Source of the DNA: Ricordea florida
Taxonomy: Eukaryota > Cnidaria > Anthozoa > Corallimorpharia > Ricordeidae
Direction: 5' to 3'
DNA: 64,000 nt
Assembly (NCBI GenBank): GCA_949710005.1
Contig: OX453275.1
Coordinates: 6,038,481 to 6,102,480 of the forward strand
The notes beneath the pieces are model-generated. The model was not told the DNA's origin and did no database searches. It saw only the letters and a list, made by a program, of their open reading frames with translations. Made by a program: the position numbers and the translations under genes. Position 1 is the stretch's first letter, and each line of letters opens with the position of its first letter. Shown here in pieces: positions 766 to 62,200 of the stretch.

Positions 766-1776
766 CTGTGGTTGATATGGAGGCGGTTGAGCCATAACAC
801 CAACTGCCAAAAAAAGAAAATTGTCACTGCTACAGGATCCTATTATGTATAGTAACAGCTATAACTCTACACTGTTGTCATGAATACAAAAGAGAAACAT
901 CATTCCTCCCTTGCCAAAAATTTGTGAAATATCACATAGAATTCATTGAAAAAATTAAAGCAATAGGTTGAGTGTTATGCAATCTTTGGAGTTCAGTTGT
1001 AGACGTATTTTTAGCTTGTTGTTGGGATTTACATACCCACGAATATGGCTGAGTCTGAGGCTGAGCCTTATACATGTAGTTAAATAAATATGGAGAAGAG
1101 AGTCTGCTAGGAAAAGCCTCACTCACAACAAAAACTACACATACTGTAATTGACACCAAGCCATGAAATGAATCGTTTAGATCAAACGAATGTAGTGTTA
1201 CATGAATGTAGATTAACTTAAGTTACTGTAAGCCCATACCAGGGGGTGGGTAGCCTGGATATCCACCAGGGGGAGGTGGAGCGTAATATCCTGGTCCAGG
1301 AGGAACGTAGTAGCCTGGCTGTGGTGGAGCAGTTGGGTACGGAGTGTAGAAATTCCCACCATTCATCATAAACGGTTGTCCAACTGGTGCAGGTGGAGCC
1401 TGGTTTCCTGGTCTGTGGGCTGCAAGATAAATGAACACAAATAAATAACTGTGAAGATTCTTGTATGCCCACAGGTCAAATGATAATGTGGTGTAAAATA
1501 GTAATACACCAATAATTAGAATGATGTTGCGGTAGCACACATATAGTAGTAAGGACTTTTTAATGTTCATAATTGTTTTAGAAAACAGTCCCAAGAAAGT
1601 ACGCGCGCTGATTGGTTAGAAATCGTGTTTCTATAACTCGATAGAAACACAGAACTAGCACGAGCTGTTGATGTAATGATGACGCGGCAAAGAGAATTTA
1701 CATTTTGATATTCAAAGTTAACAAGTTGCTTTTCTTTTTTTCGCCGCGGTGTTTTCTAAAAGAAATAGAAAACATG

Positions 1777-5753: not shown

Positions 5754-8369
5754 ATACAACCAGCATGAATTTAAAGTATTTTCTTAAAGTATTATCTATG
5801 AAATCCATTTCATCAATTTCCATTGCCAATCGAGACTTCTTCCTTTGGCGTTTTTGGGTGGTGTTTTCACTCTCTGAGAGATTTAGAAAAAAACCTACCA
5901 CAAAATCCAACTGCAAGCTTCAAGTTCAACTATTACAAAGACTGTCCGGCGGCTTGAGGTGGAGCAGGACTTGCTTGCATAGTAATTATTTCTATTTTGC
6001 GCGCCAAAATTAACGTAATTGTACTAAGAAATTGCATGGCTGAATTGGCTGTTCGCTTCAAAAACTACCCATTTAAATGATCCAAGCCTCGTGAACTGAT
6101 CTTTAAATGTAACTATTTACTACAGCTACGTATATGCAATGTGCACGTAAATCTGCTCAAACTATAAAAATCTGTAAATCGCGTCACCGTTACTCCAGAC
6201 TTAAGTTAATATGATTTCGGGACGAATGCTGCGAATAAAATTGTTTCTCGATTTGCTGTTCACCTCTGATAATTACCCTGTTTTTTGAACGATCATCAGA
6301 GTTTAGTTAAACTGGAATGTTACATTAAAAGAAGTCTTAAAACAGTTGAAAAACCACCAACCCCAGTCTTAATAATTTTCCTGAGTAGGGAGTTTTTTTA
6401 CCGGTCTTCCTTTCTTTCTTTTCCTCCTCCCAGTCAACCATGGTGTCTAAGCCCTCGAAGATTTCTCCGGCATAATGTACTTACGACGCTATTTAAATCT
6501 TCTTCCGTCCAAAGAACTAGCAAAATCCATCTTTTTATATCAAAAAGCAATTTCTTGGACTGTTTTGTTTGCGCGCAAACTTTGAATGTGACACTTCAAC
6601 TGAAAGGAATATCAGTGTTGGCAACATCTCCTACTCTTATTGGACGTTTGAAGTGTGACAGGTATCCGGTATCGGCAAGCCAAATGTAGCAAAATTCAAT
6701 ATCACTATATTCATTAAATTTAATCCTTATACTCATTTAGAATGTTGATATTCATTCAATTCAATCCTCCAAAATTCATTCAATTTAATTTTTTTAAAAT
6801 TCATTCAATTTTATGCGTCCCTATTGATTCAATTCATTGACCAAAATTCGTTCAATTCAATCAGTTCATATTCATTCAATTCAATCCTCCAAAATTCATT
6901 CAATTCATTTTTTTAAATTCATTCAATTTTATGTGTCCCTATTGATTCAATTCATTGACCAAAATTCATTCAATTCAATCAGTTCATATTAATTCAATTC
7001 AATCAGTTCATATTCATTCAATTCAATCCGTGGAATATTCATTCAATGTTCGCACTCATTTATTTAATTTTGGGGACTGGGACGAGAGATGAAATTTGAG
7101 GGGTACTGGGACTTCCTGCATAGTTTTAGAAGTTGCCATCTTGGAAAAGCGATGTGCAGTTCATACGCTCCTGTTTCTTCGAGAAATTATGGATGAAGAG
7201 AAACTGAAACGGGCTGCTGGCCTCCTTAGAGAGGCACACATGTATATGCTAAGAGATGCCTTTTGTAGAATACCTTTATTGCTCTTTAACAACTAGATAA
7301 ACTAGATTTATCTCAAAATTTGAAATTTTAATTTTCAGTTGCTCTTTCACAGATTTCCAGATAGAAAACAGTCATAATAGTAATTTTCTAAATGCTATAT
7401 TTAAGTATATGTAGTGATAGCATGTGATTGTAGCTACCACTGCTGGCTTTGAACACAATGAGGACCTAAAATGCCTTTGTAACAACCTATACTGGTAAGG
7501 AGACTTCTTGTTTATCATACATGCTGTAGCCGTAACCAACCCTGTCTGCAGTCTGTTTATTCAATGCTTGTGTAAAGGTTTTAACTAGAAATAATTTGCA
7601 AATTGAAAAATAAGAAATATACGACACCAAATGACGGCAAGCACAGAAAGCTGCTAGGAATACGAAAGAACCGGATCAAGGAAAACCTGATTCATTGGTT
7701 GTACACAATACTAGATCTGTAGCCTCGTGTTTTGATAAGCATTCTCTTTTCCTTGGAACACTCATTTATTGATGACAATTCTCACTGATATGCCTTGTTT
7801 CCTTTATGCTCTCCTTGAGTTATACTGGTCAAACTTTGACACAACTATTTCAAGGGCTTGAGCGTAAATGTCTATACCAAAACACAACGACTCTTCCAAA
7901 GGATCAGCAGCATTTGTTAAATGAACTGTCAGTTCATCACCGTTGATGTTGGAAACTAAGAAGGATATACCTCAACCTTGTTGTTGGATTCTTCAAGAGT
8001 CATTGGTCCCTCAGGGTCTTCTCCGTTTAAGAAATAGAAAACACGTACCATGTTTCTATTGAGTTATAGAAACAAGAGTGGAAGCTTGGGAGAACGAGAA
8101 CGAGAAATGCTGTGAGAATACGAGCCACAGACGATTGTTTCCACAGCTTTTTCGAAAGAGGTTGAGAACTGTTGTGGCAAGATTGTTTGTGCTGCAATAA
8201 AGGAAAATTATTCTCCTTGAATAACCTTCAATGCATCCCTGTATTATAAATCCCCATCGAATCAGTGAGTGATGGCCATCTAAGTGCTATATAAGGAGTT
8301 TGGCCAAGGGACAAAGTACACTCTTTGAGAAACTAAGGCACCCCACCTCCGAGCGGTGTTCCTTGGATC

Positions 8370-9240: not shown

Positions 9241-10831
9241 CCTTGGTATGCTGCTTATTGTTTCAGTTGAGCTCTGGTTAATAATTTCCTCAGTCCTGTT
9301 TTTTAACATGCTGTAAGAAATTTTTGACCTCTGAATCCTCTGATTCCACCATGTTTGGTAGGGTTATGTCCAGTACCCTGTGAATTTCATCTCTCCGCCC
9401 CAGTCCCCAAAATTAAATAAATGAGTGCGAACATTGAATGAATATTCCACGGATTGAATTGAATGAATATGAACGGATTGAATTGAATGGATTTTGGTCA
9501 ATGAATTGAATCAATAGGGACGCATAAAATTGAATGAATTTTAAAAAAATTAAATTGAATGAATTTTGGAGGATTGAATTGAATGAGTATGAACTGATTG
9601 AATTGAATGAATTTTGGTCAATGAATTGAATCAATAGGGACGCATAAAATTGAATGAATTTTAAAAAAATTAAATTGAATGAATTTTGGAGGATTGAATT
9701 GAATGAGTATGAACTGATTGAATTGAATGAATTTTGGTCAATGAATTGAATCAATAGGGACGCATAAAATTGAATGAATTTTAAAAAAATTAAATTGAAT
9801 GAATTTTGGAGGATTGAATTGAATGAATATTAAAATTCTAAATGAGTATAAAGATTAAATTAAATGAATATAGTGACATTGAATTTTGCTACATTTGGCT
9901 TGCCATAATCGGCCAGGAGAATCTGTCATATTCGCAGCGGCCGAGGAGATTTCACTTGTAGTTTTCTCTCTTTGTCGAGAACAGCAAGTAAAGGTAAAGA
10001 TCATTTGTACATTTATTTCATTTTCTTCATGGCTGCGATATATTTACATTGAGTTTTAAATAAGTCAGAAGGATGGTTTTAAAAGGGATCAGATCGGAGG
10101 AGCGCCGGCGTGACATTTCCAGAAGAGTTTTCGATTTAAGCGGCGGCATGACCTTCATATCAATCACGACAACTGATAAGAAGATCGTCTCCTCATGTTT
10201 TGAAGCTGTTGTAGGTAAGAAAAACAATCATAGTACATAAATTGATTCATTCACGTGTTACTTCAACTTTCGTATCGTTGTTCTATCAACACTGATATGT
10301 CGATCAATAAAACGTTTTTTTCTTCCTGAGCGTTTGGAATTGGGAATTTAACACCAATTCGCCCTGCACTGCTCTTAAATCTTACTGAAAGAATGAATTA
10401 AGGTCGACAGTGTATTTAAGTGTTCTATTAACTTACTCTTTATGCCTCTTATTTACGCATTTTCAATTTTCGACTATCTTTTTATCTGTAGAATCGAACT
10501 ATTTTATTTTAAATCTCAAAACGAACCAGTAATGACTGATGCAACTAAGGTTTATACCGAAGTCACGATACAATCAATGGTCTATCGATCCGGTTTTTGG
10601 ACTTCAACGTGTTGCAGATCATCTGCAGACGCTGCAGATAATCGCAGATCTGTTGTTAGTCTGTTTTTCGTCTGCAGTCTTAAGATTGCGAAGACTATTA
10701 AAGCTTAACATCTGCAGCAGACTGAAAACAGACTCTGCAGACGATAAATTAGTCTGCAGTTGATCTGTTTTTGTCAAAACAGATCTGTTGCAGATCTGCT
10801 GCAGATCTACTCGTTTCGTACGGGATATTAC

Positions 10832-13853: not shown

Positions 13854-14656
13854 TAAGACCGTGAGTGTTGGTCCGGCCGGGGTTTGAACCCGCAACCTCC
13901 CGCACGGTAGTACGGTGCTCTACCAACTGAGCTAACCGGTCGGCGTGTCATGTACTCGATTTTTTGCCCTAGAGACGCCCTTAGCAACGACTGTTAACAT
14001 ATGCTTCAGGAGCCTTCTAAAACACTTATTTCATGCTATTAAGAAAAACTGTGGCTCAGAAAGTATATGAAAGGTTATTTTATACAAAATGAGAACGGTA
14101 TTATCTCATTTACTGTATATCTCAACTTTAGAACCTTTTTTTTTTCAAATCCGAAAATTGTTAAATTCTAACATTTGTAAGCAGCATATCTCTTCAGGGT
14201 TTTAACTGAACATCTTGAAACTTTCAGGACTATTTGTTCATGTTATAATCTTAAGCTTGGTCACAAACCTCAAAAAGTGGAAAATGATATAGCATTGTAC
14301 TTGTGGTTAAACTTTTCTGAAGTGTCATTTTGCTAGTTCTGCATTTACACAAGGAAAAAATTCTAAAAGCAATCAAAGTTTCCCTGCTTTTTAAGTTTAT
14401 GACCTGGGGAATTTATTTAGGAATAGAATAAAACTGATTTTATGATTCAGTGACCATTGTAAACTGTGTTATCCTGCTTCAGTAAAATAGACCTCCATTT
14501 TTCACCATTGGGGGTCTGGTTAATCATTAACTATTCAACTTAGCAACCAGAAATAAATCTTTTTGAAGTCAGGGCATAATAATCTTTCACATGAAAGAAA
14601 ACGTTTTCTTCAAAGATAGTTAACAAAAAATTCAGTTTTTAGGGTATAATACCACC
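13305..14656. mobile_element. 1.35 kb inverted-repeat DNA element carrying a SINE
   Basis: The ends are GGTGGTATTATACTCTAAC at 13305 and GGGTATAATACCACC ending at 14656, inverted with one mismatch in the first 17. TTAA occurs directly left (13301-13304), and on the right after two T's (14659-14662), so the target duplication is uncertain. The interior is AT-rich without a transposase and contains SINE copy 2, inserted later. It splits SINE copy 1. Confidence 0.7.
13460..13947 (-). mobile_element. Full-length tRNA-derived SINE, copy 2
   Basis: On the minus strand the element starts with a tRNA-like head (13947-13871): A box TTAGCTCAGTTGGTAGAGC and B box GGGTTCAAACCC. A body of about 340 bp follows (including GTGGGACGTTAAAGAACC), then a tail of ATT/ATC repeats preceded by GCGCCATATAAATTAG. 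RNA polymerase III would transcribe such an element from the internal A and B boxes. The acceptor and anticodon stems do not pair well, so the head is not a working tRNA gene. The body and tail resemble copy 1. Confidence 0.8.
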
Positions 14657-16554: not shown

Positions 16555-17550
16555 TTATGATGGCAAGTTTATAACACCCACTGTGGAAGTCATCTCTTGA
16601 CCCATTTCTTGGATTTCTGTGCGTCCCTTCATCGTTGTTCCACTGTTGTTAAACGGAGTCACTTTATTTCGCCTGCAGCAAACCAGCTCAGCGAGGTGTT
16701 TCCGAAATTTGCTGCTCTGTAGGCTGTATACGGTGGGATTGATGCTGGAATTGAACACGATTAGAGCCGAAGCGGCTGCGTGATGCACAGCCTCTAATGT
16801 AACTGCGCCCGTGAAACCCAGAAAATAAATCAACAACTCCGGAACCCAACACAAAACGTACACAACTGTTACGAAAATCACCATCTTTGTGACGCGTTTC
16901 CGATAGCGGAGCAATGCCCTCTGGGAAGCTTCAGAACTCGTTTGCTTAACAAACCAGAGACGGAACACAACTCGGAAGTAAAGGGCACTCATGATACCAA
17001 TCGGTATGATACCGGCTACCACAGACCACCCAACCGTATACACCTTGGCGTAAATAGGCTTTGAAAAGCTGTGACCACACCCTTTGAATTGTTCGATATA
17101 AGTGGTTGCCATGAAACCGGGAATGGCCCACATGATGGACAAGATCCACGACATAGCAGCGAGTATGACGATCTTATTCTTAGTAAGCCTTACTCTCTGG
17201 CTGTGCGGGTACAGCACGGCCCAGTAGCGCTCAATAGCAATGGCTACCAGCGAAAACACCGAAGCTACTGCGCCAACCCATCCCGGGGTACCCCCCGTGA
17301 GTAGTTTGCACAGCACTGACCCTGTGACTCCCTGGGGGTGGGTGAAGGTGGGTGTTACGATGAACTGTATGCCAATGAATAAAGCGACGACTATATCGGC
17401 GCTAGCAAGGTTCACCAATAAATAGTTGGTTGGCGTTTTCATCGATCGATGTTGCATAACCACTAGAATGACCAAAGTGTTTCCAACTAGGTTGAATACC
17501 ACCATTACTGAAAACAACACCGAGAAACCGATATACAACGATGACAGCAT
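16555..17550 (-). CDS. Rhodopsin-like (class A) G protein-coupled receptor, intronless, 331 aa
   Basis: A plasma-membrane seven-helix receptor that should couple an unknown, probably peptide, ligand to heterotrimeric G proteins. The frame opens with a very short N-terminus (MLSSLYIGF). Visible landmarks: TM1 GNTLVI (24-29), TM2 NLASADI (47-53), Cys81 at the top of TM3 with Cys158 in loop 2 for the conserved disulfide, ERY (107-109) for the DRY motif, Trp135 in TM4, CWVP (234-237) in TM6, NPTVY (271-275) for NPxxY, and CC at 291-292 as a possible palmitoylation site. A basic RYRKRVTK stretch precedes TM6, as in G-protein-coupling loops. It is collinear residue for residue through helix 8 with the receptor at 34202-35128, so they are recent paralogues. 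Ligand class cannot be fixed from sequence; neuropeptide-type receptors are the closest in feel. Confidence 0.95.
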   Translation of the reverse strand: MLSSLYIGFSVLFSVMVVFNLVGNTLVILVVMQHRSMKTPTNYLLVNLASADIVVALFIGIQFIVTPTFTHPQGVTGSVLCKLLTGGTPGWVGAVASVFSLVAIAIERYWAVLYPHSQRVRLTKNKIVILAAMSWILSIMWAIPGFMATTYIEQFKGCGHSFSKPIYAKVYTVGWSVVAGIIPIGIMSALYFRVVFRLWFVKQTSSEASQRALLRYRKRVTKMVIFVTVVYVLCWVPELLIYFLGFTGAVTLEAVHHAAASALIVFNSSINPTVYSLQSSKFRKHLAELVCCRRNKVTPFNNSGTTMKGRTEIQEMGQEMTSTVGVINLPS

Positions 17551-20480
17551 CTTTGAAGCTTGAAATCACTCTGAAATGGAGAGAAGAAAACAGAGCATTT
17601 AGCGAAATGAGAGGAGACAAGTGTCTGGTACACAACTGCGATTCGTCTTATTACTACCTGTTGCTATTGCAGAAGCTAATTGCAAGAGGCAATATGATAC
17701 CCGCCGAGTACGAAACTACTCTGTCGATTCACGAACTAATGCATTGCTCTATTTTTTTCAGACCATTAAGCATTAGGCGAAGGTAGCCCGCAAATTTCTA
17801 CCTTAATTTCTGATCCCCCTGTTGGCTATTAATAGGCGCAAATCTCTAATCCAGTAAAATGGCATTGCTCTCCCCACGAACGGAAATATATTAATATTTA
17901 GACGAATTAGGCCACTGGAAATTCACATAGGTAAAAAAGGGGAAACGTTCAAATCTGGGCTTGTAAATATACCGCCATATAAAGCGTTCTACAAAAAAGT
18001 GAGCGAACCATTTTTATTTGCTATTAATTTACATCAAAAGACAAGCGAGTGTGCGCAGAATAGCTTAGGTCACAGAGTTTCCCGATGCACCTCGACCCCG
18101 AGTAAATAAAAATCAAAGCATGTGTCATGTTGTAGGTTGTCATTTTATTGGCTTTGAAATTTACACGCGAGAATTTTCCCGAATTTAATTTTGTGTTTTA
18201 ACCAAAGTCTTTTAGCACGGTGCACGAACCACGAAAATACCTTAGAGACAAAGCAGCTGTCCACTAAACAGCAGCTCATTGGTTAATAATATATTATCGT
18301 ACGGATTTCCTTAATGGTAATCTCTACGCACAATTCTCTATACCTAGCTAGCTTATGAAAATAATAAGTTGTTAAAGAGCAATATTTTCTAGAATCGTCC
18401 AAGATCATAAAGAGCGAAATCGACCCAACCTTATGCTAATCATTAATTATTAACCACAAAACTTTAGGAAAAACGAAATGGCATGTTTAATGCGTTGTCG
18501 ATTGCGCAAAGTAAAGTTAACCTTTAGTCAAGAAAGATGGGTTTCTGATCTCGGCAGTGTCAAAGGCAAACTCGGAAAAAAAAATTGGAGTTCTCTTTAT
18601 AGGAGTCGAGCCTATATGACCCTCCGATTTTTAGTTAGGACTCTCTACCACTGAGCTATCGAGACTTGTGGGGCAAGGTCATTAAACTAGGTTAAAATTT
18701 AGTCTTTCACATAAAAGTGAAATGCTGCAGCAACGCTTAGGGCTTGCGAGTTTGATTACTTTCAGTCACTGAACAAACTGAGAAAAACAATAAATATAAA
18801 GCACCGACAAAAGAATCGTAGAAAATCCGTTAAGAAGATCCCATGCAATAAACCCGTTGTTTCAGAACGTGCGTTTTGAAAGGAAGTCTTACCTTTTTGC
18901 AAATTTAAAGCGAAAGTAATATTAGCGTCTTTGTTTCCAAACTACAAAGTTATATGTAACTTCTACCTCCCAACAGTTTTGGTTGCGTCGCTTGAGAAAA
19001 CGTGAGGGCCACGCTGACCAGACGCATTGCGCGGTTAGAACGCGTTCATATCTACCAAGGCAAAACAAGTAAGCTGAAATGAGCCGGATTTCCTCGCTCA
19101 TGGTGTAAGCCATTTCAATTCCAATGTGAAATGCATTGGTGGCCGTTTAGGGCCTTTCTTACCTTAGTACTAAATTGTCAGTCAGAATAACTCTGGTGCT
19201 TTCAGGCGCGTGCACTTTCTAGTATAACCAGATGCTAAGCAATTAAAGGTATGACAATGACGCAGACTTCAGATGTCATATCGAAATGCGAAATCAGTTA
19301 TTATAACTGATCGTTTTGCGAAATAGGAGGCATAAGATTTGTTTGTTTGATTGTCTTGGTTATAAATTCGTACGTGCGAGAAATTCGGTTCAATTTTTTT
19401 CGTACGTGCGATAATTGTAAATTAAACCGGTCATTTAGCACATTTAGCACGCTAGCTGTTCAATTTAATAAAAATTATATCTTTTATACGTTTTTAACAA
19501 ATAGTCCTTTTTTATCGAAAAAATCTATTTTGTTAAATACATTGGTACAGATCCCACTTAAAGTCTTGCTCCGTTTCTTCTCAATTGAATTATTTAATGA
19601 ATCTAAGGCAGGTTATTGTAACAGTCATTACAGAAGGGAAGTTGAAAGCCAACTCTTACAATACTTGTTTGGCGCCAGTACCGGCTATCACACGATTTTC
19701 CAAAGAGAATTTATCTATAAATTTGATTAATATGTCTCAATAATGACTACAGTTTATCCATTTAAGCGGGACAAAACTGTATTAATGCCTATTCTTTAGG
19801 AAGTGAATGAACCGTACATTTCTGCGATGTCATTTGTTTACTCTTTTCTAAATAATTTCCTGAAGCCTGCATTTTTTCCTCTAAGCTAGTTTTGGGTTCT
19901 TCCCTTTCCTCAGTTGAAACGTTGACAACGTGGGATAATCAATGTTTGCCAGCCTTCTAAACCTCAGTTGTTCTCAGAAAAAAATTTCTGCAATCACACA
20001 GCTGTCTGAATTAATATTTAAAACGGAACTGTATTAGCATCGTTAATCTCAGCCTTAATAAGAATTACCAGCTGTTCGCTTCCGGGAATTTTTTTGTTTT
20101 GAACCCCTTATACGTTTTGCATAAAGTCGCGACGATCCGGTCCAAGACGGGTGGATTTGTTAAGCAAACTTTGTTCGAAAAAAATGTTTGCCTTAAGTTG
20201 TTTACTTTAATAAAAACATGTCGAGGATGGTAGGAGGTACAGCGCCAAATTCGTTTTAATAGCTTTCCTGTCACGTCCTCACTAGTTACTACCACGCGGA
20301 TTAGAAGTTAGATTCAGTTTAAAATGTTTAACAAAAGAAGCATCAATTATTGGCTTTTTCGAATACTTCACAGTAACTCTCAAATCAAAACAGTTTAAAA
20401 TTCTCGAGGTTGCAATTTTGAACTGAAATGAAAAAAAGAAATTTTCAGTGGCTTTTTAAAGAATGCTCTCTCTGCGGCAG
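17551..20480. other. Upstream of GPCR, no recognised gene apart from the SINE
   Basis: AT-rich sequence with only short open frames (for example 18922-19113 minus, 19347-19730 plus and 20065-20295 minus). None shows a recognisable domain or a convincing splice context. The GPCR promoter must lie near 17551-17800, but no motif stands out. Confidence 0.35.
18557..18667 (-). mobile_element. tRNA-headed SINE, second family, copy 1
   Basis: The minus strand shows an A-box-like ATAGCTCAGTGGTAGAGAG and a B-box-like GGCTCGACTCC, then GAGAACTCC, a T run and CCGAGTTTGCC. The same arrangement and tail recur at 31637-31750, so this is a dispersed SINE rather than a tRNA gene; the anticodon arm does not pair cleanly. 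Confidence 0.65.
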
Positions 20481-31891: not shown

Positions 31892-32695
31892 TCAATTGAT
31901 TACAGGAAGCTCTAAACTGCTGTAAAAAAATTGTTTTGACGGACGCATTTGGCCAGAACGTCTTTCGCAATGACTGCTTTGGAAACAGTAAACTACTGGG
32001 TTATTAATGCAAGAGTTCAACATAACCAGAGAAAATGCCATGCCATGATGTATTGCCTTTAGCGTAAACACACCGAGGAAGCCGAGAAAATAGATCAAGA
32101 TTTCTGGAACCCAACACAGCACGTAAGCCACACTCACAACTAGAACCATCCTGGTAACCCGGCGTCAGAAGAGCAACAATGCCTTCTAGGTATTCTCAGT
32201 CGTGTTGTCTCGTTTAAACCAAAGACGGTAAATTAGTTTGGGATACAACGATCCCATGATGCTTATGAGGACTACTCCAGCAACAATTAACCACCCATTG
32301 AACAGTATAAAATTTTGGATTAATTTCTTTTGGTCAGCGGTATCCACAACCCAGATGTTTTTTTTGTGTAAGGCGTCTCGAAAAACCTGGACTTGCCCAA
32401 ATCAGAGTCACTGCCCAGCCTTATCAAGACGTAAATCGTTGACTCGATCGCTTGTCCGCTTTCCTCTATGGCGATCAGAAACTATGAATCGAACACGTAA
32501 TACCGTTCAATGGCGATTCCAATCAGACTGAATATAAAGCAAACGGCTCCGACCCAGCCCATAGTTCATCCGGTTAGAGATTTACAGAAAAGCGCTGCTT
32601 CGAAGGTGTTGAAATGCGACACTGACAGTGTTGCGATGAACTGGACGCTGGCAAATATCTATACGGTGATGTCCGATGCAGCAAGGTCTACTAAA
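31892..32695 (-). pseudogene. Broken class A GPCR, paralogue of the two intact receptors
   Basis: The frame 32149-31892 carries TM6 (VLCWVPEILIYFLGF) and TM7, but with an extra residue in the motif (SCINNPVVY) and a disrupted tail. Going upstream in shifting frames, ISIMGSLY and YRLWFKRDNTTENT (TM5 and loop 3) are followed by in-frame stops, and near 32695-32640 TM2 reads NCLVDLAASDITV followed at once by a stop and IFASVQFIA. TM1 and the start are missing where a foldback element begins. It is closer to its neighbours than to anything else here, so it is a dead tandem duplicate. Confidence 0.88.
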
Positions 32696-34201: not shown

Positions 34202-35128
34202 TTAGGAAGACTGTGTCCTACTTCCTGGGTTGACTCGATTGGTACCCAGTCTACAGTGAATCAAATCAGACAAATGGCGCCTAAACTGGCTGCTTTGAAG
34301 ACTGTAAACTACCGGATTGATGCTCGAATTAAACACGATCAAAGCCGACGCGATTCCTTGATAGACTGGAGTAAGAGTTATAGCACCAGTAAAACCAAGG
34401 AAGTAAATCGACAGCTCTGGAACCCAGCACAAGACATAAACAACTGTCACAGCGATCACCATTTTAGTGGCTCGCTTCCTGTAGCGCAGTAAAGCCTTCT
34501 GGGAAGCCTCAGTTGCCGTGTCTCTTGTGAACCAAAGGCGGTAAACAACATTTGCATACAACCCCCCCATAATGCTTATTGGAATAACACCGGCTAAAAT
34601 TGTCCAGCCCACGGTGTATATCTTGGCATGTACTGCCTCCGTCCAGTGGTGCCCACAGGCGCGCGTCTTAGTGAGGTACGCAGTTGCTAGGAAACCGGGT
34701 ATGGCGAATACAACAGACAATGTCCAGCATAACACAATCAGAACGGTGATCTTGTTTTTAGTGAGCTTCAGTCGTGGATTGTGTGGGTGCAGAACTGCAC
34801 AGTAGCGTTCAAACGCAACAGCTACCAAGGAGAACACGGATGCAACGGCCCCTATCCAGCCAGGATTCCCTCCGGTCAAGAATTTACAGAGTATTGTACC
34901 CCGGGTCCCATCCGGGTGTTCGAGCGCAGGGGCAATAATGAATTGCACACTGGAGAATATGGCCACGGTTAGGTCGGCCACCGCAAGGTTGACAAGGAGA
35001 TAATTTATTGGTGTCTTCATTGTCTTGCTGAGAAGCACCACTGATATGACTAGAGAGTTACCCATCATATTGACAAGTATCATCAAAGAAAAAGCTGTGG
35101 CAAAACCAGCGTATATTGAAGATGGCAT
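34202..35128 (-). CDS. Rhodopsin-like (class A) G protein-coupled receptor, intronless, 308 aa
   Basis: Paralogue of the receptor at 16555-17550, with the same spacing of all landmarks: TM1 GNSLVI (24-29), TM2 NLAVADL (47-53), Cys81/Cys158 disulfide pair, ERY (107-109), Trp135, CWVP (234-237) and NPVVY (271-275). Loop 3 (TEASQKALLRYRKRATKMV) is almost identical to the paralogue's, suggesting the same G-protein class. Loop 2 (TKTRACGHHWTEAVHAK) and the first extracellular loop differ more, so ligand preference may have diverged. The C-terminal tail is shorter (RLGTNRVNPGSRTQSS), with one Cys (292) after helix 8 against two. The start MPSSIYAGF aligns with MLSSLYIGF of the paralogue, supporting both starts. 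Confidence 0.95.
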   Translation of the reverse strand: MPSSIYAGFATAFSLMILVNMMGNSLVISVVLLSKTMKTPINYLLVNLAVADLTVAIFSSVQFIIAPALEHPDGTRGTILCKFLTGGNPGWIGAVASVFSLVAVAFERYCAVLHPHNPRLKLTKNKITVLIVLCWTLSVVFAIPGFLATAYLTKTRACGHHWTEAVHAKIYTVGWTILAGVIPISIMGGLYANVVYRLWFTRDTATEASQKALLRYRKRATKMVIAVTVVYVLCWVPELSIYFLGFTGAITLTPVYQGIASALIVFNSSINPVVYSLQSSQFRRHLSDLIHCRLGTNRVNPGSRTQSS

Positions 35129-35450
35129 GATCTGACTATCTGAAATTAAAATGTAAAAATGTGAATATTAACCGTTCATACACATGTGCTGTTACGGGAA
35201 TTTTGGCCTCCATTCTCTTTCCTGGAGATATTCGTCTCGAATTTTGTGTTCGTTTGTCTTCCACGTGATCTCAATACGACTATCTACAGGAGCGCATTAC
35301 TAGGAGCGCTCCTTCTTTATAATCTTGATCGGGCGTTTTGACAGACCTAGTTGCCCCCGCAGGGTTTTAGAGGTCAAAACCCGAAGAGGCACCTTGGCGT
35401 TTCCCGCTAGTAAACATACAAGGAATTTAAAAAAAGTAAGAACTGATGTG

Positions 35451-38540: not shown

Positions 38541-40360
38541 TTTGATACTTGTTATTTTACCCGCTAGCCTCCAAGGAAAATATTAGAACATTTAATATAT
38601 TCTTTCACAAATCGAATACAGAAGAAAATCGTTCACAAGCTAGTCTGCATAATTTTTGATTACACAAATATTTTCTATGTTTTTCAAAGATGACACGACG
38701 TTTTTGACTCGATAATAAACTTAATGAAATAAAAATCGAATTATTTTAGATGTCTGTGACTAGGGAATAGGTTTATAAAAGGAGCGTTGATCTGAAACGT
38801 AAGCCGACGTAGTCAAAATTTCAAACTTCTAGCTTGGAGCTGAAAAAATAAACAGAACAGGTGATGTAAGACCATGACAGCATAAATGTACATGGACTGG
38901 CAGATACAGGTGTAGGCCATTAAAAATGCGCGCAAAAGCGCAACCAGACGGTTTGAGAAAATACTACAAATTTTAACGCTTCTCCACAGTCCCCATTTTA
39001 TTTAATTTTCTTTCTTTTCCCTGCTTCACTGTTTTGTGTGCGACATGCATCATTCAAGATTAGTGAAAGTAGCACAAATTAAACGATCGATAAAATAAAT
39101 TTCAAAATGTATTTTTCTTACTTAAATGGTTACCGCAAGTTTCTTTTAATTTTAACTTCGAAGCATTTCTGCAATTTGGCGATTCATTTGAACGTGAATC
39201 AATGTAGCAGCCAAATTGCTTTATCTCCAGGCACAAAATAATGCTGTCAATGTCGTAAACAACATCTGCAATTGAGGAGTAATTGCTTTTTACACCGTCC
39301 GAATTATATCACTAAACAGTACAGCTAGAAACAAAGAAGTACATTACAATACTACCATACTGAAAAAAAAGAAAGAGCTTAATCAAATTTTGGTCAATTA
39401 TAATCAGATGTTTTCGTTCAAAACTAGCGGTTTGCAGCGGAGTGATTTTGTTTTTTTCTTTTTTTTTTTGAATTTTGGATTAAGAAAATACACTGTGTGG
39501 TTATTCTCGAACTTTCGCCTTAACAGTTCCAAAAATAACGCGAAAACAGGACAATAAATATCAACGTAAAAGCAATACGTATTTCGAGATTGTGTTTCTA
39601 ACGTTCCGTTGCTTGTTAGAGAAGAAAGTGCAGCGGTGCATTTAAATATTTTGCAATCGAGTTGGCCTTTTTAACTTGAGCATTCAGCGTTTTCGCTGCG
39701 TCAGTTTTAAAACTTGATTAATAATAATAATAAAAAACGTAAACTAGAATAATATACTCTTTTTCTTCTAAAACAAAATATTTTTACACATTTTAAAATT
39801 ATACCTACCAGTGACCTGTCCCAAAAACCTGATTTGCTATGGTGACGATTGTAGAAACAACTCGATGCTTTCTTGCGCAAGGCAAATAAGCCCTCTGTAG
39901 TCGTCAATTTTCTTTCAGCGCGTTCACCAAATTTCAAACGCAAACACCATCAGGGCACACGATGACACTTATATGTTTGCTATTTTAGTTTGCACAATCG
40001 AATTTCCATTTTCCATTTAAGATTTCATTGATAATATAAAATGCCAATCAAAAAGAAATAAGAAAGACAGATTTTCACCGTTGACTTTTGAGTCTTCTAA
40101 TTGTCGCAAGCGTGAGGCAAACTGATATATAAAAAAGTGAAAGTGAAAACGTTGATTATAACTCAGATTTGTGCTGTGCTTGCATATCACTGCAGATACT
40201 ATCTATAGAAGAAACTGGCACTAAAACAAACCAGAAATGACCAAATGAAACGCGCCATTTTATTCAGGCCGGGCCTTCAGGGTCATCTTCAAATGTTGGG
40301 TCTCAAACTGATCTTCCGATCGGACCAAACGGAAACGGACCGTTTATTTGACTTTCAACC
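38541..40360. other. Intergenic, no recognised gene
   Basis: AT-rich, with a TAA/ATA microsatellite at 39717-39735 inside a meaningless minus frame (39707-39943). Nothing else identified. Confidence 0.35.
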
Positions 40361-40365
40361 GAAGA

Positions 40366-40505
40366 GTAGTGAATCATGTAAGCCTCCACAAAATATCCCG
40401 AGGAGTAGGGAATCATGTAAGCCTATACAAAATATGCCGAGATCTTCTGATTACCCCCTCGAAGAGATCTCGGGATATTTTGTAAAGGCTTACATGATTC
40501 ACTAC
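40366..40505. mobile_element. Palindromic MITE with an extra internal copy of one arm
   Basis: The left arm 40366-40403 (GTGAATCATGTAAGCC, then AAAATATCCCGAG) and right arm 40470-40505 are inverted copies. A second direct copy of the left arm (GGAATCATGTAAGCCTATAC) occupies 40407-40446. Confidence 0.7.
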
Positions 40506-41057
40506 CCCAACCGAAATTTGATGAATTTTTGTCGAACAGTAAGCGCCTAATTTTTCATGGAGCATTTCTTGCCAAGGTGAATGTCCGCTGAGCGGTTATC
40601 CTTGTGGGCTCCCCAACTCTGTGACAACAATGCTGAAGAGATCGATGTGTACGGAATTCAACTGTTTATAGATCTCTTAAAAGTTATTTCTATACGAAAG
40701 GAAGACCTATTTTGAAATACTGAGACAGTCAGATCTTCACTTATCATCGTCGTCGACGTATTCTGTCACTGTAAGTGTTCTGTTATTCTTACGGCACCAA
40801 TTTTCGTCGAATTTCAGCTGATCTCAATTGACAATGAAATGGCGCAATGGAAATCATTGAGTCGTTGTTGTCGGATATATCCCGAAATATCTCTGTAGCT
40901 GCTTTTATCATCTGGTAGTCATGTAAATCGAAAATTCTTGTGCTAATTTACAAGCATTCCGAGCCGTTTTAGGATCGTGTTTTCTTTATGTAACTCACAC
41001 AGAGATTTGAGTACATCTGTAAAGACATTCTGAATTTTTAACAGCTGAATCTTTCAT

Positions 41058-41982: not shown

Positions 41983-42212
41983 CTACAATATACATGTGAT
42001 ATGTGAAGTCTGATGTGAATATTGACTTGTTAATTGATCTATTACTGTCAGACAATAGCTGATCCTGTTTTAAAGCTCCAGTTGCATTATGTACATGTGA
42101 TTCATGCTCATGTGAAATTTGTTGATATATTTTTTCTCTGTACTTTGACACAGATTTTTTGCCTTGGACTTACATGTAGCTTTGTTATTTTCTGTGAATT
42201 TTTTGCCATTTA

Positions 42213-45200
42213 ATGGAGAGCACTGAGTGGATTCCACATAAAACAAAGACTGGAAAAATTCTATATTATATAAATCCAGTCACAGGAGAATGCAAGTGGC
42301 AGAGCCAACTAAACAAGGTACAGTTGAATACAACTCTGAAGAATTCATTTAATTTTAAATTAATGATATGAAATCTGTGTATCAACGGCAGCTTACTCAA
42401 TTGGCTGGTCCAGAAAATAGCATGTGTTCTTTCTAATTTGTTTGTGGTATGCTGTTGACTGGCTAATGCAAGACCTGAAAAAGACTACTACTTTGTAGAA
42501 AGTCTTATACTGAGGTTTTGGTACTTACTTGTAGCTTTCAGAGACTGAGAGTATACTGTTCAAAGTTACTGTTCAAAGTTCACCATGTTATTAAAAGTAT
42601 GGTTTAAGTACTTTTTGAGCTTGAAGTTGTGACATTCATACACAAATCTTCTTACTTGAAAATTCTCTATGCTAATCAATACAATATAATGAGATGTGGT
42701 CAGAAATGCACATTATTATATCTCTCAGTTAGTACGCATGCTGTGATTGGTAAGTTTAGCAGGCCGTACTTCACTGTACGGCCCGCTAAATTCAAAAGTT
42801 TGTTTTGGTTGCCAAAATGACTCCAGAGATATAATAAATATCTTACAAATCTCATTTACTTGGTCTGTACTTTAATTTACTGATTCTTGTTTTTTTCCTC
42901 TTGGATTTAGGGCCCTCGTGCCTTGCACTTGGGCCATAAATCAGAGTGGAAAAAACTTGGTCCGTAACTTGCAGTACGGACCTCGAACTCGGTTAGTAAG
43001 AGGTATTTAATGAGACTCATATTCATCATATATGACATGGCAAAATGTCATGACTGTTTTAATGTCACCAAAACACACTAATATCTGTCCTGTATGAAGT
43101 GATATGGAATTCCCAAATCACCCCCACACACAAAAAGAGTTAACTTGTTAAAGAATGTGGTGTGCATTTCTGGCCATAAGTGTTTTAAGCAGGCATAGCA
43201 AGATACTTGTGAAAATTCTGCTTGTGGTCGAGGGCTTGGTCCTTGGTCCATCACTTGGTCCAGCAAGGAGAATATTTTTGAATAATATTTTCTATCAGGC
43301 CTCATAATTCCCAACCATTCAGATCTTACCATGTATTCTCACAAAAGTTGAACTTGCTTGCACATGTATAATTATGCAATATTAATTATATGAATTTGAA
43401 AGTATTCTCACAAAAGTTGAACTTGCTTGTACATGTATAATTATGCAATATAAATTATATGAATTTGAAAGTATTCTCTCAAAAGTTGAACTTGCTTGTA
43501 CATGTATAATTATGCAATATAAATTATATGAATTTGAAAGTATTCTCACAAAAGTTGAACTTGCTTGTACCTGTATAATTATGCAATATAAATTATATGA
43601 ATTTGAAAGTATTCTCACAAAAGTTGAACTTGCTTGTGCATGTATAATTATGCAGTATATATATGAATTTGAAAATTATTATAACTTGAATGGTATCGTA
43701 ATTACTGTAAATAAAATAAATTAAATACTGTACTGGTAACTGCAATAAATGATAGGGAAAATTTGGTTTTAATGTTCAAATTTTCTCGTTGGATGTTTTT
43801 AACAGGATGACAACAATGAAATCAAGTTTGAGCGACCCAAAATATCTACATGTAGTCAACCATGTACTGTACAAAGAACAAGTACAGCAATTAATACTAC
43901 AACAGAAAGGAACAGTGAAGAAACCCATGCTCCATCTACAAAAACATTAAATCAAAATTCAGCCTTAGTTATTACGCCTTTGGAAGGAGAAGATACAGTG
44001 TGCAATGGTCAGACATTATGTTCTAGTGATATCGAAGAGGATGAAGATGTCTACCAGTCATCACAGTGTGCACCTCCTTTGCTTAATGAGGAAAAGGGCT
44101 TTGGCTTTGAAGAGAACTGGAATGACCAAGATAGTGTAACTGTGGATATTTTAGCACAGAATGTAAGTGGAATTTTGTACCCAATCAACATCTTACAGGA
44201 TCCTATTTTTAATGACTTTTTTTTGTTTTCATTCCCAGTATGGTCAAAGCATTAATATGAATTCTTGATAAATAAATAGGTGAATAGATAAATGAGTTAA
44301 TAGATAAGATACCAGTAAACATCTGTAATATAGCATTGTTAACATATAGGTTTCTTACCTATTTTCTATTGATTATGTTGTTTTATCTTAGCCTTTAATG
44401 TGGTCATATAGCAATGCTATTACTATTCATGAATATGTATTCTTACTATTTTTCATTTGATTGAAGCCTTATATTCATTTGAATATTTGATGAAATTGAT
44501 TTTATCTAATATAAAGCATCACCATCATTATTATTATTGCATTAAACAGCCCATATGCCTTTATATAATATGTCCATTATTCAGATTTCTTTCATAGGTA
44601 TTAAATTAATAATTGTTCAATCTATTTAATAATGAATTACATGAAATGTATTTTTTAAAAATACTTTTCAGGAAAATTCCAGCGTTTGTTTTATTGAAAA
44701 TGGACAGGTGAACACACAGACTTACCAGCCTTCATGTAAGTATCCACACAGTGTAGCAGGGTGTGTGTCACCCTTCTTTATGGTGGCAAGTGATGGTTGC
44801 AGAAGCAATGTGGTGAAATTGTGGGGGCATGAATGTTTGCTTCTCTCTGTGAATGCACTGCATTTCAGAGGGTGGCAGAACGTTTGGTCTGTTCTGTGAA
44901 AAATTTGATTGTGGCGTAGTGTAATTTAATTTTGGAATGGCAGAACATAATAATAATAACTATTATAAAATAATATTAAATAATAAAGTCAATAAAATAA
45001 TGGATAATTAAATGCTAATTATGTAATTATATAATTAAGATAATTATTATCTTTTCTTTTATTACTACACTGCTTTAAGGCCTAAGGGTAGGTGTAAGGG
45101 GGGTTCATTTGGACTACAGATGCTGTCACAGGAAACAGTCAGACAACAATTTATTGTTGAAGGCAAACTTATATCTTTATGGTTAAACATTTATTGTATA

Positions 45201-45993
45201 CTTTTGGAACGTCCTTGTGCATGGTCTATCAATCTCAAAGGTCAGCATTTAAAAGTCAGACTTTTGCGACAGGACTAATTGCTTTGTACTCTTTTACCTG
45301 TCAGATCGTGATCAAATTGGTCCGACCTTTATGCGGTCTTCGTTAGAGCAAAATCCTCGACAGATTCTTCAGTGTGCCCAGTGCAGCGAGCAGTTCTCGT
45401 GCCCGAACAGATTTACTTCTCACCTTCGAAAGCACCCGGAAATTGACCATCTGCGATGTCCTATTTGCGCAAAGGAATACTCGTCTTCAACCTACCTCAC
45501 AACTCACCTTCGAACACACACAGGCGAGAAACCATTCGTTTGCCTGCAGTGTCACAAAACCTTCAGCCAGTCAAGTCATCTGAAAACCCACACGCGCGTG
45601 CATACGGGAGAAAAGCCCTACCAGTGCCCCCAATGCCCTAAGACATTCGGCCAGTCAAGCCATTTGACCTTGCATCTGCGCATTCATAACGGAGATAAGC
45701 CATTTCAATGCCGCGTGTGCTCTAAAGGGTTTCCTAATTCGTCAGGTCTTAGTACGCACGAGCGAACACACACAGGGGAGAAACCCTTTCAGTGCCCACA
45801 TTGTCCGAAGAAGTTTCGACAGACGAGTCACCTCAAAATACATATTCGAACACACACTGGTGAAAGACCGTTCCAATGTCCTCACTGTCTGAAGTGTTTC
45901 AGACAGTCTTGTTATCTAGCAAAACATGTTCGAGGCCATTCTCCTAATAAGGGAGAATTTTCCTCAGTTGCTCCTCAAGACTTGTCCACATAA
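42213..45993 (+). CDS. WW-like domain plus seven C2H2 zinc fingers, four exons, 404 aa
   Basis: A probable nuclear DNA-binding protein. Exons 42213-42317, 43806-44162, 44672-44735 and 45305-45993 have GT-AG borders and phases 0, 0 and 1 that agree throughout; an in-frame TGA at 42195 supports the start. Residues 6-29 (WIPHKTKTGKILYYINPVTG, then ECKW) have the WW-domain pattern: W6, G15, YY18-19, N21, T24, W29. The usual final Pro is missing (WQSQL). Residues 36-175 look disordered, Ser/Thr-rich with an acidic stretch (SSDIEEDEDVYQSS). Residues 199-387 hold seven C2H2 fingers, each CX2C-X12-HX3H; most linkers are TGEKP or TGERP, but the 1-2 linker is PEIDHLR and the 4-5 linker NGDKP. Targets cannot be read from this. 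WW domains bind PPxY partners, so the protein could bring such partners to DNA (inference). Confidence 0.88.
43333..43672. repeat. 69-bp minisatellite, about five copies, in intron 1 of the WW-zinc-finger gene
   Basis: Copies start at 43333, 43402, 43471, 43540 and 43609 with GTATTCTCACAAAAGTTGAA and differ at a few positions; the last is truncated. Because 69 is a multiple of three, both strands stay open (23-residue repeats such as MQYKLYEFESIL...). The flanking gene's splice sites skip it, so these frames are not coding. Confidence 0.9.
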
Positions 45994-48170: not shown

Positions 48171-48700
48171 GAGTGATTGGTTCATTGTGCTGTGTCACAG
48201 TATTGTGATTGGTTCATTGTGCTGTGTCACAGTATTGTGATTGGTTCATTGTGCTGTGTCACAGTATTGTGATTGGTTCATTGTGCTGTGTCACAGTATT
48301 GTGATTGGTTCATTGTGCTGTGTCACAGTATTGTGATTAGTTCATTGGACTGGGTGAAACTGCTGTGATTGGTTTATTGGACTGAGTCAAACTGTTATGA
48401 TTAGTTCATTGGACTGTGTCAAACTGTTGTGATTGGTTTATTGCCCTGAGTCAAACTGTTATCATTGGTTCATTGGACTGTGTCAAACTGTTATGATTAG
48501 TTCATTGGACTGTGTCAAACTGTTGTGATTGGTTTATTGGACTGAGTCAAACTGTTATCATTGGTTCATTGGACTGAGTCAAACTGTTATGATTAGTTCA
48601 TTGGACTGGGTCAAACTGTTGTAATTGGTTTATTGGACTGAGTCAAACTGTTATCATTGGTTCATTGGACTGTGTCAAACTGTTGTGATTGGCCAGAGTA
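48171..48700. repeat. 32-bp minisatellite, about 16 units, rich in inverted CCAAT motifs
   Basis: Units of 32 bp begin GTGATTGGTTCATTG. The first five read ...TGCTGTGTCACAGTATT; later ones change to ...GACTG(A/T)GTCAAACTGTT, and the second type alternates TTCATTGG and TTTATTGG. Most units contain two ATTGG (CCAAT complement) motifs. The flanks (48013-48120) carry further isolated ATTGG/CCAAT motifs. Confidence 0.9.
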
Positions 48701-61080: not shown

Positions 61081-62200
61081 TCACTGGGCATCACTGTGTG
61101 ATCTTGAGGAACTTTTTCCCTTTGCAGGCTTGTTCCCTCTAGGTGGTAAACTGCCATAATGTTTATCACATACTCTAAGATTCTTGACAATTTCAAAATC
61201 AGATGTTATGTCCTCAGGGGTAGATTTCATTTCATATTGCCCAATCATACTATCAAATTTACGAGAACCAACCTCATTTTCACATCCCTTTAAATAGCAT
61301 TGTATACCTCCAATCAACCATCCATGCACGATCATTGTTCCAGTTATTTCATTCAAAGGTAAACAATCACGCAATGGCTTGCCACGACATGACAACCAAT
61401 ACAGATCACTTGTTATCTTGAATTTGCTATTTACTTGAGATCTTAAATCTCTCACAGTTCCATATGGTGCAAACGTAAATATGTGGGCTTTACCTGTTAT
61501 ATCAATTACTGAGATGGTTGTCACAAACCTTTTTGATCTTATCACCATGCTGAATAGAAAACCTGGATGGTGTAATTCAACCATTTTTGCACAGGGATAA
61601 CTTAACAGTACACCAAAGCAAAGATACAAAATGGGAAAAAACAGTGGCAATTCTAAACAGTGTCTAGAGTTAGCATCAAAGCTCTCCCCCAGTGCCATTA
61701 CCGACACAACATATGAGCCCACAAGAAATGGATATGGTAGGGCTGATACAGTCAAAATAATAGCAACAGCCAACAAGTAAACAGGAGCAAAATGAAACTT
61801 GCAGTCTAATACCTAAACTATGGATTTTCCCAAGGTTGAACAAAACACCATGAAAAACAAGAAGGCATGTTGTAATTAGACTGGAACGAAAGCACTTTGA
61901 TTTTTTGTGCCAGAAATATTGTACCAGTGAGAATTTCACTTGTGGCTTTTTGTGTAACAAAACTTTATAAAGTGGATCAAGCAAAGAAAAAAATACTCTC
62001 AAAATAATAACAGCAGGGAATTGCAGTATCTCCAGCACCCAATTCAACAATGTATTGTACTTAACCATTAGCCTTAAGCAAATCCTGTAAAGTACATTGC
62101 AGTAAAACAGGAAAATAAGTGTAATGATAATACATGTCAAGGCTAAAATAGAAATAAAGAGGTTGGACATGTAAATGTTTTGCAAAAGCCTTACTTTGTA
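61081..62200 (-). CDS. Multipass membrane protein with cytosolic ubiquitin-like domain and C2CH motif, frame break inside
   Basis: A candidate exon starts after the acceptor TTTAATACAG (about 62201) and reads YKVRLLQNIYMSNLFISILAL, followed by several hydrophobic helices, to about 61803. There the frame shifts by one; the other frame continues VLDCKFHFAPVYLLAVAIIL to the stop at 61081. Numbered in the 231-residue downstream frame (61776-61081), residues 3-66 are membrane segments and 84-157 a ubiquitin-like fold: FVTTISVIDITGKAHIFTFA, then TVRDLRSQVNSKFKI, LSCRGKPLRD and WLIGG with a Gly-Gly pair. Residues 160-206 match C-X4-C-X37-C-X2-H, the spacing of THAP-type C2CH zinc modules (RVCDKHYG), though typical THAP Trp/Pro residues are lacking. 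TMUB/HERP-type proteins also pair a ubiquitin-like domain with membrane helices. The shift is a short intron, an assembly error or a real lesion. Confidence 0.6.

Follow-up and report, generated by a model that had tools for sequence, protein, structure and literature searches.

A predicted four-exon gene

The gene described here lies on the + strand at positions 42213-45993 of a 64,000-nucleotide stretch of Ricordea florida DNA (contig OX453275.1), which is called the window below and to which all coordinates refer. The predicted four-exon model appears credible, as exons 1-4, joined with their phases in agreement, give a 404-residue protein with a WW-like N-terminus, an acidic linker and seven C2H2 zinc fingers. 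Four exons with matching phases and a product of 404 residues had been proposed in an earlier, sequence-only reading, and the coordinates and phases recomputed here all agree with it; positions 43806, 44672 and 45305 in its junctions are exon starts. The exons are as follows.

42213..42317, + strand: exon 1, residues 1-35 (MESTEWIPHKTKTGKILYYINPVTGECKWQSQLNK), with the start codon and the WW-like module
43806..44162, + strand: exon 2, residues 36-154, a low-complexity linker of acidic character
44672..44735, + strand: exon 3, linker continued, residues 155-175 and one base, with consensus splice sites and fitting phases
45305..45993, + strand: exon 4, with the array of seven C2H2 zinc fingers at residues 199-387 and the stop codon

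The open exons and the splice consensus at their borders are directly established. The donor sites of exons 1, 2 and 3 are AAG/gtacag, AAT/gtaagt and CAT/gtaagt, and the acceptor sites of exons 2, 3 and 4 are ttttaacag/G, acttttcag/G and cctgtcag/A. Intron 1 holds a 69-bp tandem repeat (five copies, 96% matches, 43333-43674).

Since the exon 1 frame (42198-42371, stop to stop) has a stop just upstream of its first ATG, 42213, and no AG lies between the two, exon 1, if used, is most simply the first coding exon. This ATG is the sole in-frame ATG within the exon, and the second ATG of the frame sits past the donor, in the intron. Exon 2 has an in-frame stop one codon upstream (frame 43803-44255) and neither it nor exon 3 contains a Met; exon 2, if coding, therefore needs an upstream start codon. 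Of 539 YAG sites on the flanking + strand, a single one is followed by an open frame of 357 bases or more. Between 36000 and 43790, 10 phase-0 ATG-to-donor combinations, spread over four donors, match the donor patterns used; exon 1 is the nearest, and the alternative ATG exons (three other donors, phase 0) lie 0.5-2 kb farther upstream. The ATG exon 40245-40538, which overlaps a 39-base tandem repeat, is a candidate alternative first exon. From these features we infer that exon 1 would be spliced onto exon 2.

A WW-like module in exon 1

Exon 1 contains the WW hallmarks W6, Y18-Y19, N21, T24 and W29, with the spacing of the two tryptophans found in WW domains (20-23 residues apart) and the aromatic pair between them. 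The Pfam profile PF00397 matched the whole protein with 17.6 bits (E=0.0041), residues 1-40 with 23.0 bits (E=8.4e-5, covering profile positions 4-28 of 31) and the stop-to-stop frame of exon 1 with 21.6 bits. The profile search of the N-terminus (residues 1-35) that the sequence-only reading had suggested thus gives a WW score, yet one under the Pfam cut-off. As controls, all window stop-to-stop frames of at least 25 residues containing W-x(17-27)-W were used (65 of 1613, that of exon 1 included), together with 40 shuffles of residues 1-40. None of the 104 controls matched the WW profile and the exon 1 frame alone did (1/105) at E<=10, a limit above which little could appear, as the HMMER filters discard most matches above E about 0.1. 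The WW resemblance of residues 1-40 is therefore above chance and below the Pfam cut-off, and the module should properly be named WW-like, not a WW domain, pending binding or conservation.

When exon 1 alone was compared to the PDB sequences, the WW domains of Prp40 (E=1.2e-4), PRPF40A (0.0037), TCERG1 (0.0082) and WBP4 (0.0086) were found, and neither YAP nor NEDD4 was among the matches at E<=1. Prp40/PRPF40A, TCERG1 (CA150/FBP28) and WBP4 (FBP21) are nuclear proteins, and none of them is known to have a C2H2 finger array. Their WW domains share the W...YY..N..T....W frame with exon 1, which differs from the Prp40-type domains in having Ile for the third aromatic residue of strand 2, one extra residue ahead of the YY pair in the Prp40 alignment and no final proline. 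A second WW-like stretch, 18204-18142 on the - strand (WLKHKIKFGKIL, followed by a gap and then by a stop), is 48% identical over 29 positions and lacks both the YY pair and the second tryptophan; it gave E=5e-4 in one tblastn run, was absent from a rerun at E<=1, and is probably due to chance.

The module may fold: AlphaFold2 gave a model with three strands and a predicted local distance difference test score (pLDDT) of 86.8, compared to 66.8 for the single control. In the VIA list, antibody Fabs made up two of the eight rows, tied in Z with the WW rows, and YAP and NEDD4 WW structures were present among the weak, tied rows.

The ligand preference was considered from the residues at the specificity sites of WW domains, given as 19, 21, 24 and 26 in an excerpt of PMC6436896. 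According to the same excerpt, a change of H21 or T26 in YAP1 weakens the binding of PPxY-type ligands, and group II/III binding has been proposed to require an aromatic residue at site 19. Profile site n corresponds to residue n+1 of the protein (equal spans in the PF00397 match), so that the four sites are occupied by I20, P22, G25 and C27. At sites 21 and 26, P22 and C27 replace the His and Thr of group I, and at site 19 I20 replaces the aromatic residue of groups II and III. The docking of PPxY proteins put forward in the sequence-only reading is unsupported, because this His and Thr are missing; among solved sequences the closest are Prp40, PRPF40A, TCERG1 and WBP4, whose WW domains belong to splicing and transcription proteins.

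The ligand contacts of PRPF40A WW1 listed in an excerpt of PMC11079029 are His149, Tyr157, Tyr159 and Trp168. Compared to these, Y18 corresponds to Tyr157 and W29 to Trp168, I20 stands in place of Tyr159, and H9 aligns with His149 provided that the one-residue insertion of the Prp40 alignment is accepted. Yeast WW domains falling outside every class provide a precedent (excerpt of PMC1557994). Our best guess, based on these residues, is that the module may bind polyproline weakly and generally rather than PPxY. The suggested link to a WBP2 homologue in the window does not hold either, as a pattern search of the exon at 1223-1615 (- strand) gave no PP-x-Y, [LP]P-x-Y or PPLP. This Pro/Gly/Tyr-rich frame, presumably the WBP2 homologue of the sequence-only reading, has no Pfam match at E<=0.1.

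The linker, the zinc fingers and the surrounding DNA

The linker comprises 163 residues (36-198), 27 of them acidic and 10 basic; its exon 2 part (residues 36-154) has 23 D/E against 7 K/R, and no Pfam match was found for the exon 2 frame 43803-44252 at E<=0.1. The stretch 108-150, with 13 acidic residues, 1 basic residue and four aromatics, would suit an activation region. It also contains PPLL at residue 125, close to the PPLP motif, and one may speculate that the WW-like module makes an intramolecular contact with it.

Seven C-x2-C-x12-H-x3-H fingers start at residues 199, 227, 255, 283, 311, 339 and 367. Four of the six finger linkers are TGE[KR]P, the others being PEIDHLR between fingers 1 and 2 and NGDKP between fingers 4 and 5, so that the array has the tandem C-x2-C-x12-H-x3-5-H arrangement with TGEKP linkers of poly-C2H2 proteins. 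The finger sequences are directly established, with Pfam matches to zf-C2H2 (E=9.3e-32) and zf-H2C2_2 (E=1.3e-46); seven regular fingers after an acidic linker had been described before. The nearest solved arrays in PDB are Aart (1.3e-88), ZNF568 and PRDM9, the usual outcome for TGEKP-linked arrays. The contact residues at positions -1, 2, 3 and 6 of fingers 1-7 are CNRS, STYT, QSHT, QSHL, NSGT, QSHI and QCYK; by the recognition code, the helices with QSH (fingers 3, 4 and 6) would be expected to favour NGA triplets.

In KRAB, SCAN, BTB and ZAD zinc finger genes the N-terminal module is encoded by one or more upstream exons and followed by a linker, with the finger array in the last exon. The same layout is found here, whereas the N-terminal module is WW-like, and the 21 Pfam families listed at E<=10 include none of KRAB, SCAN, BTB and ZAD. 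WBP4/FBP21, a spliceosome protein in which one U1-type finger at the N-terminus precedes two WW domains, likewise combines WW and zinc finger in one protein; here, in contrast, the WW-like module comes first and is followed by seven fingers of the DNA-binding type. In the NCBIfam search, four families were found at E 0.034-0.37, all of them implausible and well short of their cut-offs. No relatives were found in prokaryotic and viral contig collections, as expected, and this absence means little for an animal-type gene. No article on a protein with WW and poly-C2H2 was recognized among the literature matches listed, judged by titles and abstract openings, which is not proof of absence in print; the PARP papers among them presumably concern the different WWE domain.

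Two further genes were identified in the window, each as a single frame.

16558-17565, - strand: rhodopsin-class seven-transmembrane receptor, Pfam 7tm_1 8.9e-45
34205-35167, - strand: rhodopsin-class seven-transmembrane receptor, Pfam 7tm_1 1e-43

The two receptors are alike by eye, and a fragment at 32189-32401 (-) looks like a third, broken copy. For the frame 61084-61812 (-), a ubiquitin-like match scored 20.3 bits (E=0.00046), below its cut-off of 25.4. ARAGORN reported a tRNA-like gene at 13870-13941 (-), with no assignable anticodon; no Rfam family, tRNA included, reached its gathering score within the window. Tandem arrays at 6744-7047 and 9433-9830, with units of about 118-120 bases, appear by eye to be mutual reverse complements, and a 32-bp tandem repeat is present in sixteen copies at 48173-48692.

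A zinc finger factor contacting proline-rich proteins?

The protein is likely to act as a transcription factor, with a divergent WW-like N-terminus that would contact proline-rich nuclear proteins. The seven fingers would bind DNA sequence-specifically, and the acidic linker with its aromatics, probably disordered, would serve as a spacer and possibly as an activation region. The WW-like module would make weak contact with these proteins, such as the splicing or transcription factors that the Prp40 and TCERG1 WW domains recognize, and they would be brought to the target genes. The binding of proline-rich ligands by the module and any effect on transcription are steps that we infer. To this explanation as a whole, a four-exon gene for a DNA-binding protein recruiting proline-rich nuclear proteins through its WW-like module, we give a probability of about 55%. 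The fusion of a WW-like module to seven C2H2 fingers seen in the sequence-only reading is supported by the above data, its PPxY-docking role is not.

Several results weigh against this explanation. All PF00397 scores are below the curated gathering score of 26.9 bits. The proline after the second tryptophan is absent, as noticed before: W29 is followed by Q-S-Q-L-N-K, with no proline up to residue 40. The specificity sites match no WW class. When residues 1-175 were compared to PDB, Prp40 again ranked first, but at E=0.14 instead of the 1.2e-4 reached with exon 1 alone. Foldseek gave 936 matches to PDB at E<=10 and none at E<=0.001, and the best 50 of the 936 included 2 WW entries (Pin1, ranks 14 and 37), the others being mostly antibody entries. 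The codon usage of exons 1, 2 and 3 was equalled by 29%, 82% and 13% of equal-length open non-coding stretches, in a test so small (training set of 885 codons from the two receptor open reading frames and exon 4) as to be uninformative.

Some of these points bear on whether the module still binds. It might be real by descent and have lost its ligand, leaving a structural or degenerate N-terminus, which overlaps the favoured explanation in all but the binding step. The missing proline, the P, G and C at sites 21, 24 and 26 and the sub-threshold Pfam score speak for such a loss, whereas the module retains W6, W29, the YY pair, N21 and T24 and the AlphaFold2 model is three-stranded and confident; we regard the loss as possible, if on the unlikely side. 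Rather doubtful is an ordinary poly-C2H2 factor, in which a different first exon is spliced to exon 2 or the protein starts at Met185 in exon 4 and consists of fingers only, with the WW-like exon as a relic or minor isoform. It is favoured by the T at -3 in the start codon context of exon 1, by the three other upstream donors giving phase-0 ATG exons and by a codon usage that does not favour exons 1-3. However, exon 1 is the closest candidate and has the right phase, the remaining ones being the more distant exons described above, and its WW-like module is matched by none of the 104 controls. The group I WW domain recruiting PPxY proteins such as WBP2, as in the sequence-only reading, appears highly improbable. 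The aliphatic I20 at site 19 resembles L19 of the group I domain of YAP1 (excerpt of PMC6436896), but by the criteria of that excerpt the protein lacks the His and Thr of group I; moreover, the nearest solved sequences are outside this group and the WBP2-like exon has no strict PPxY.

N-terminal interaction modules are how C2H2 factors gain function. A WW-like exon restricted to a single gene of a single species would represent ordinary exon shuffling. We consider it a tentative and rather remote prospect that the gene represents a new class of C2H2 factors, with a divergent, nuclear-type WW module like those of Prp40/TCERG1 in place of the KRAB, SCAN, BTB or ZAD of other lineages, tying sequence-specific DNA binding directly to splicing or elongation proteins. 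Provided that exon 1 is both used and conserved, the Prp40/TCERG1-like WW would be a further such interaction module and would point to a direct connection between a DNA site and the co-transcriptional splicing or elongation machinery.
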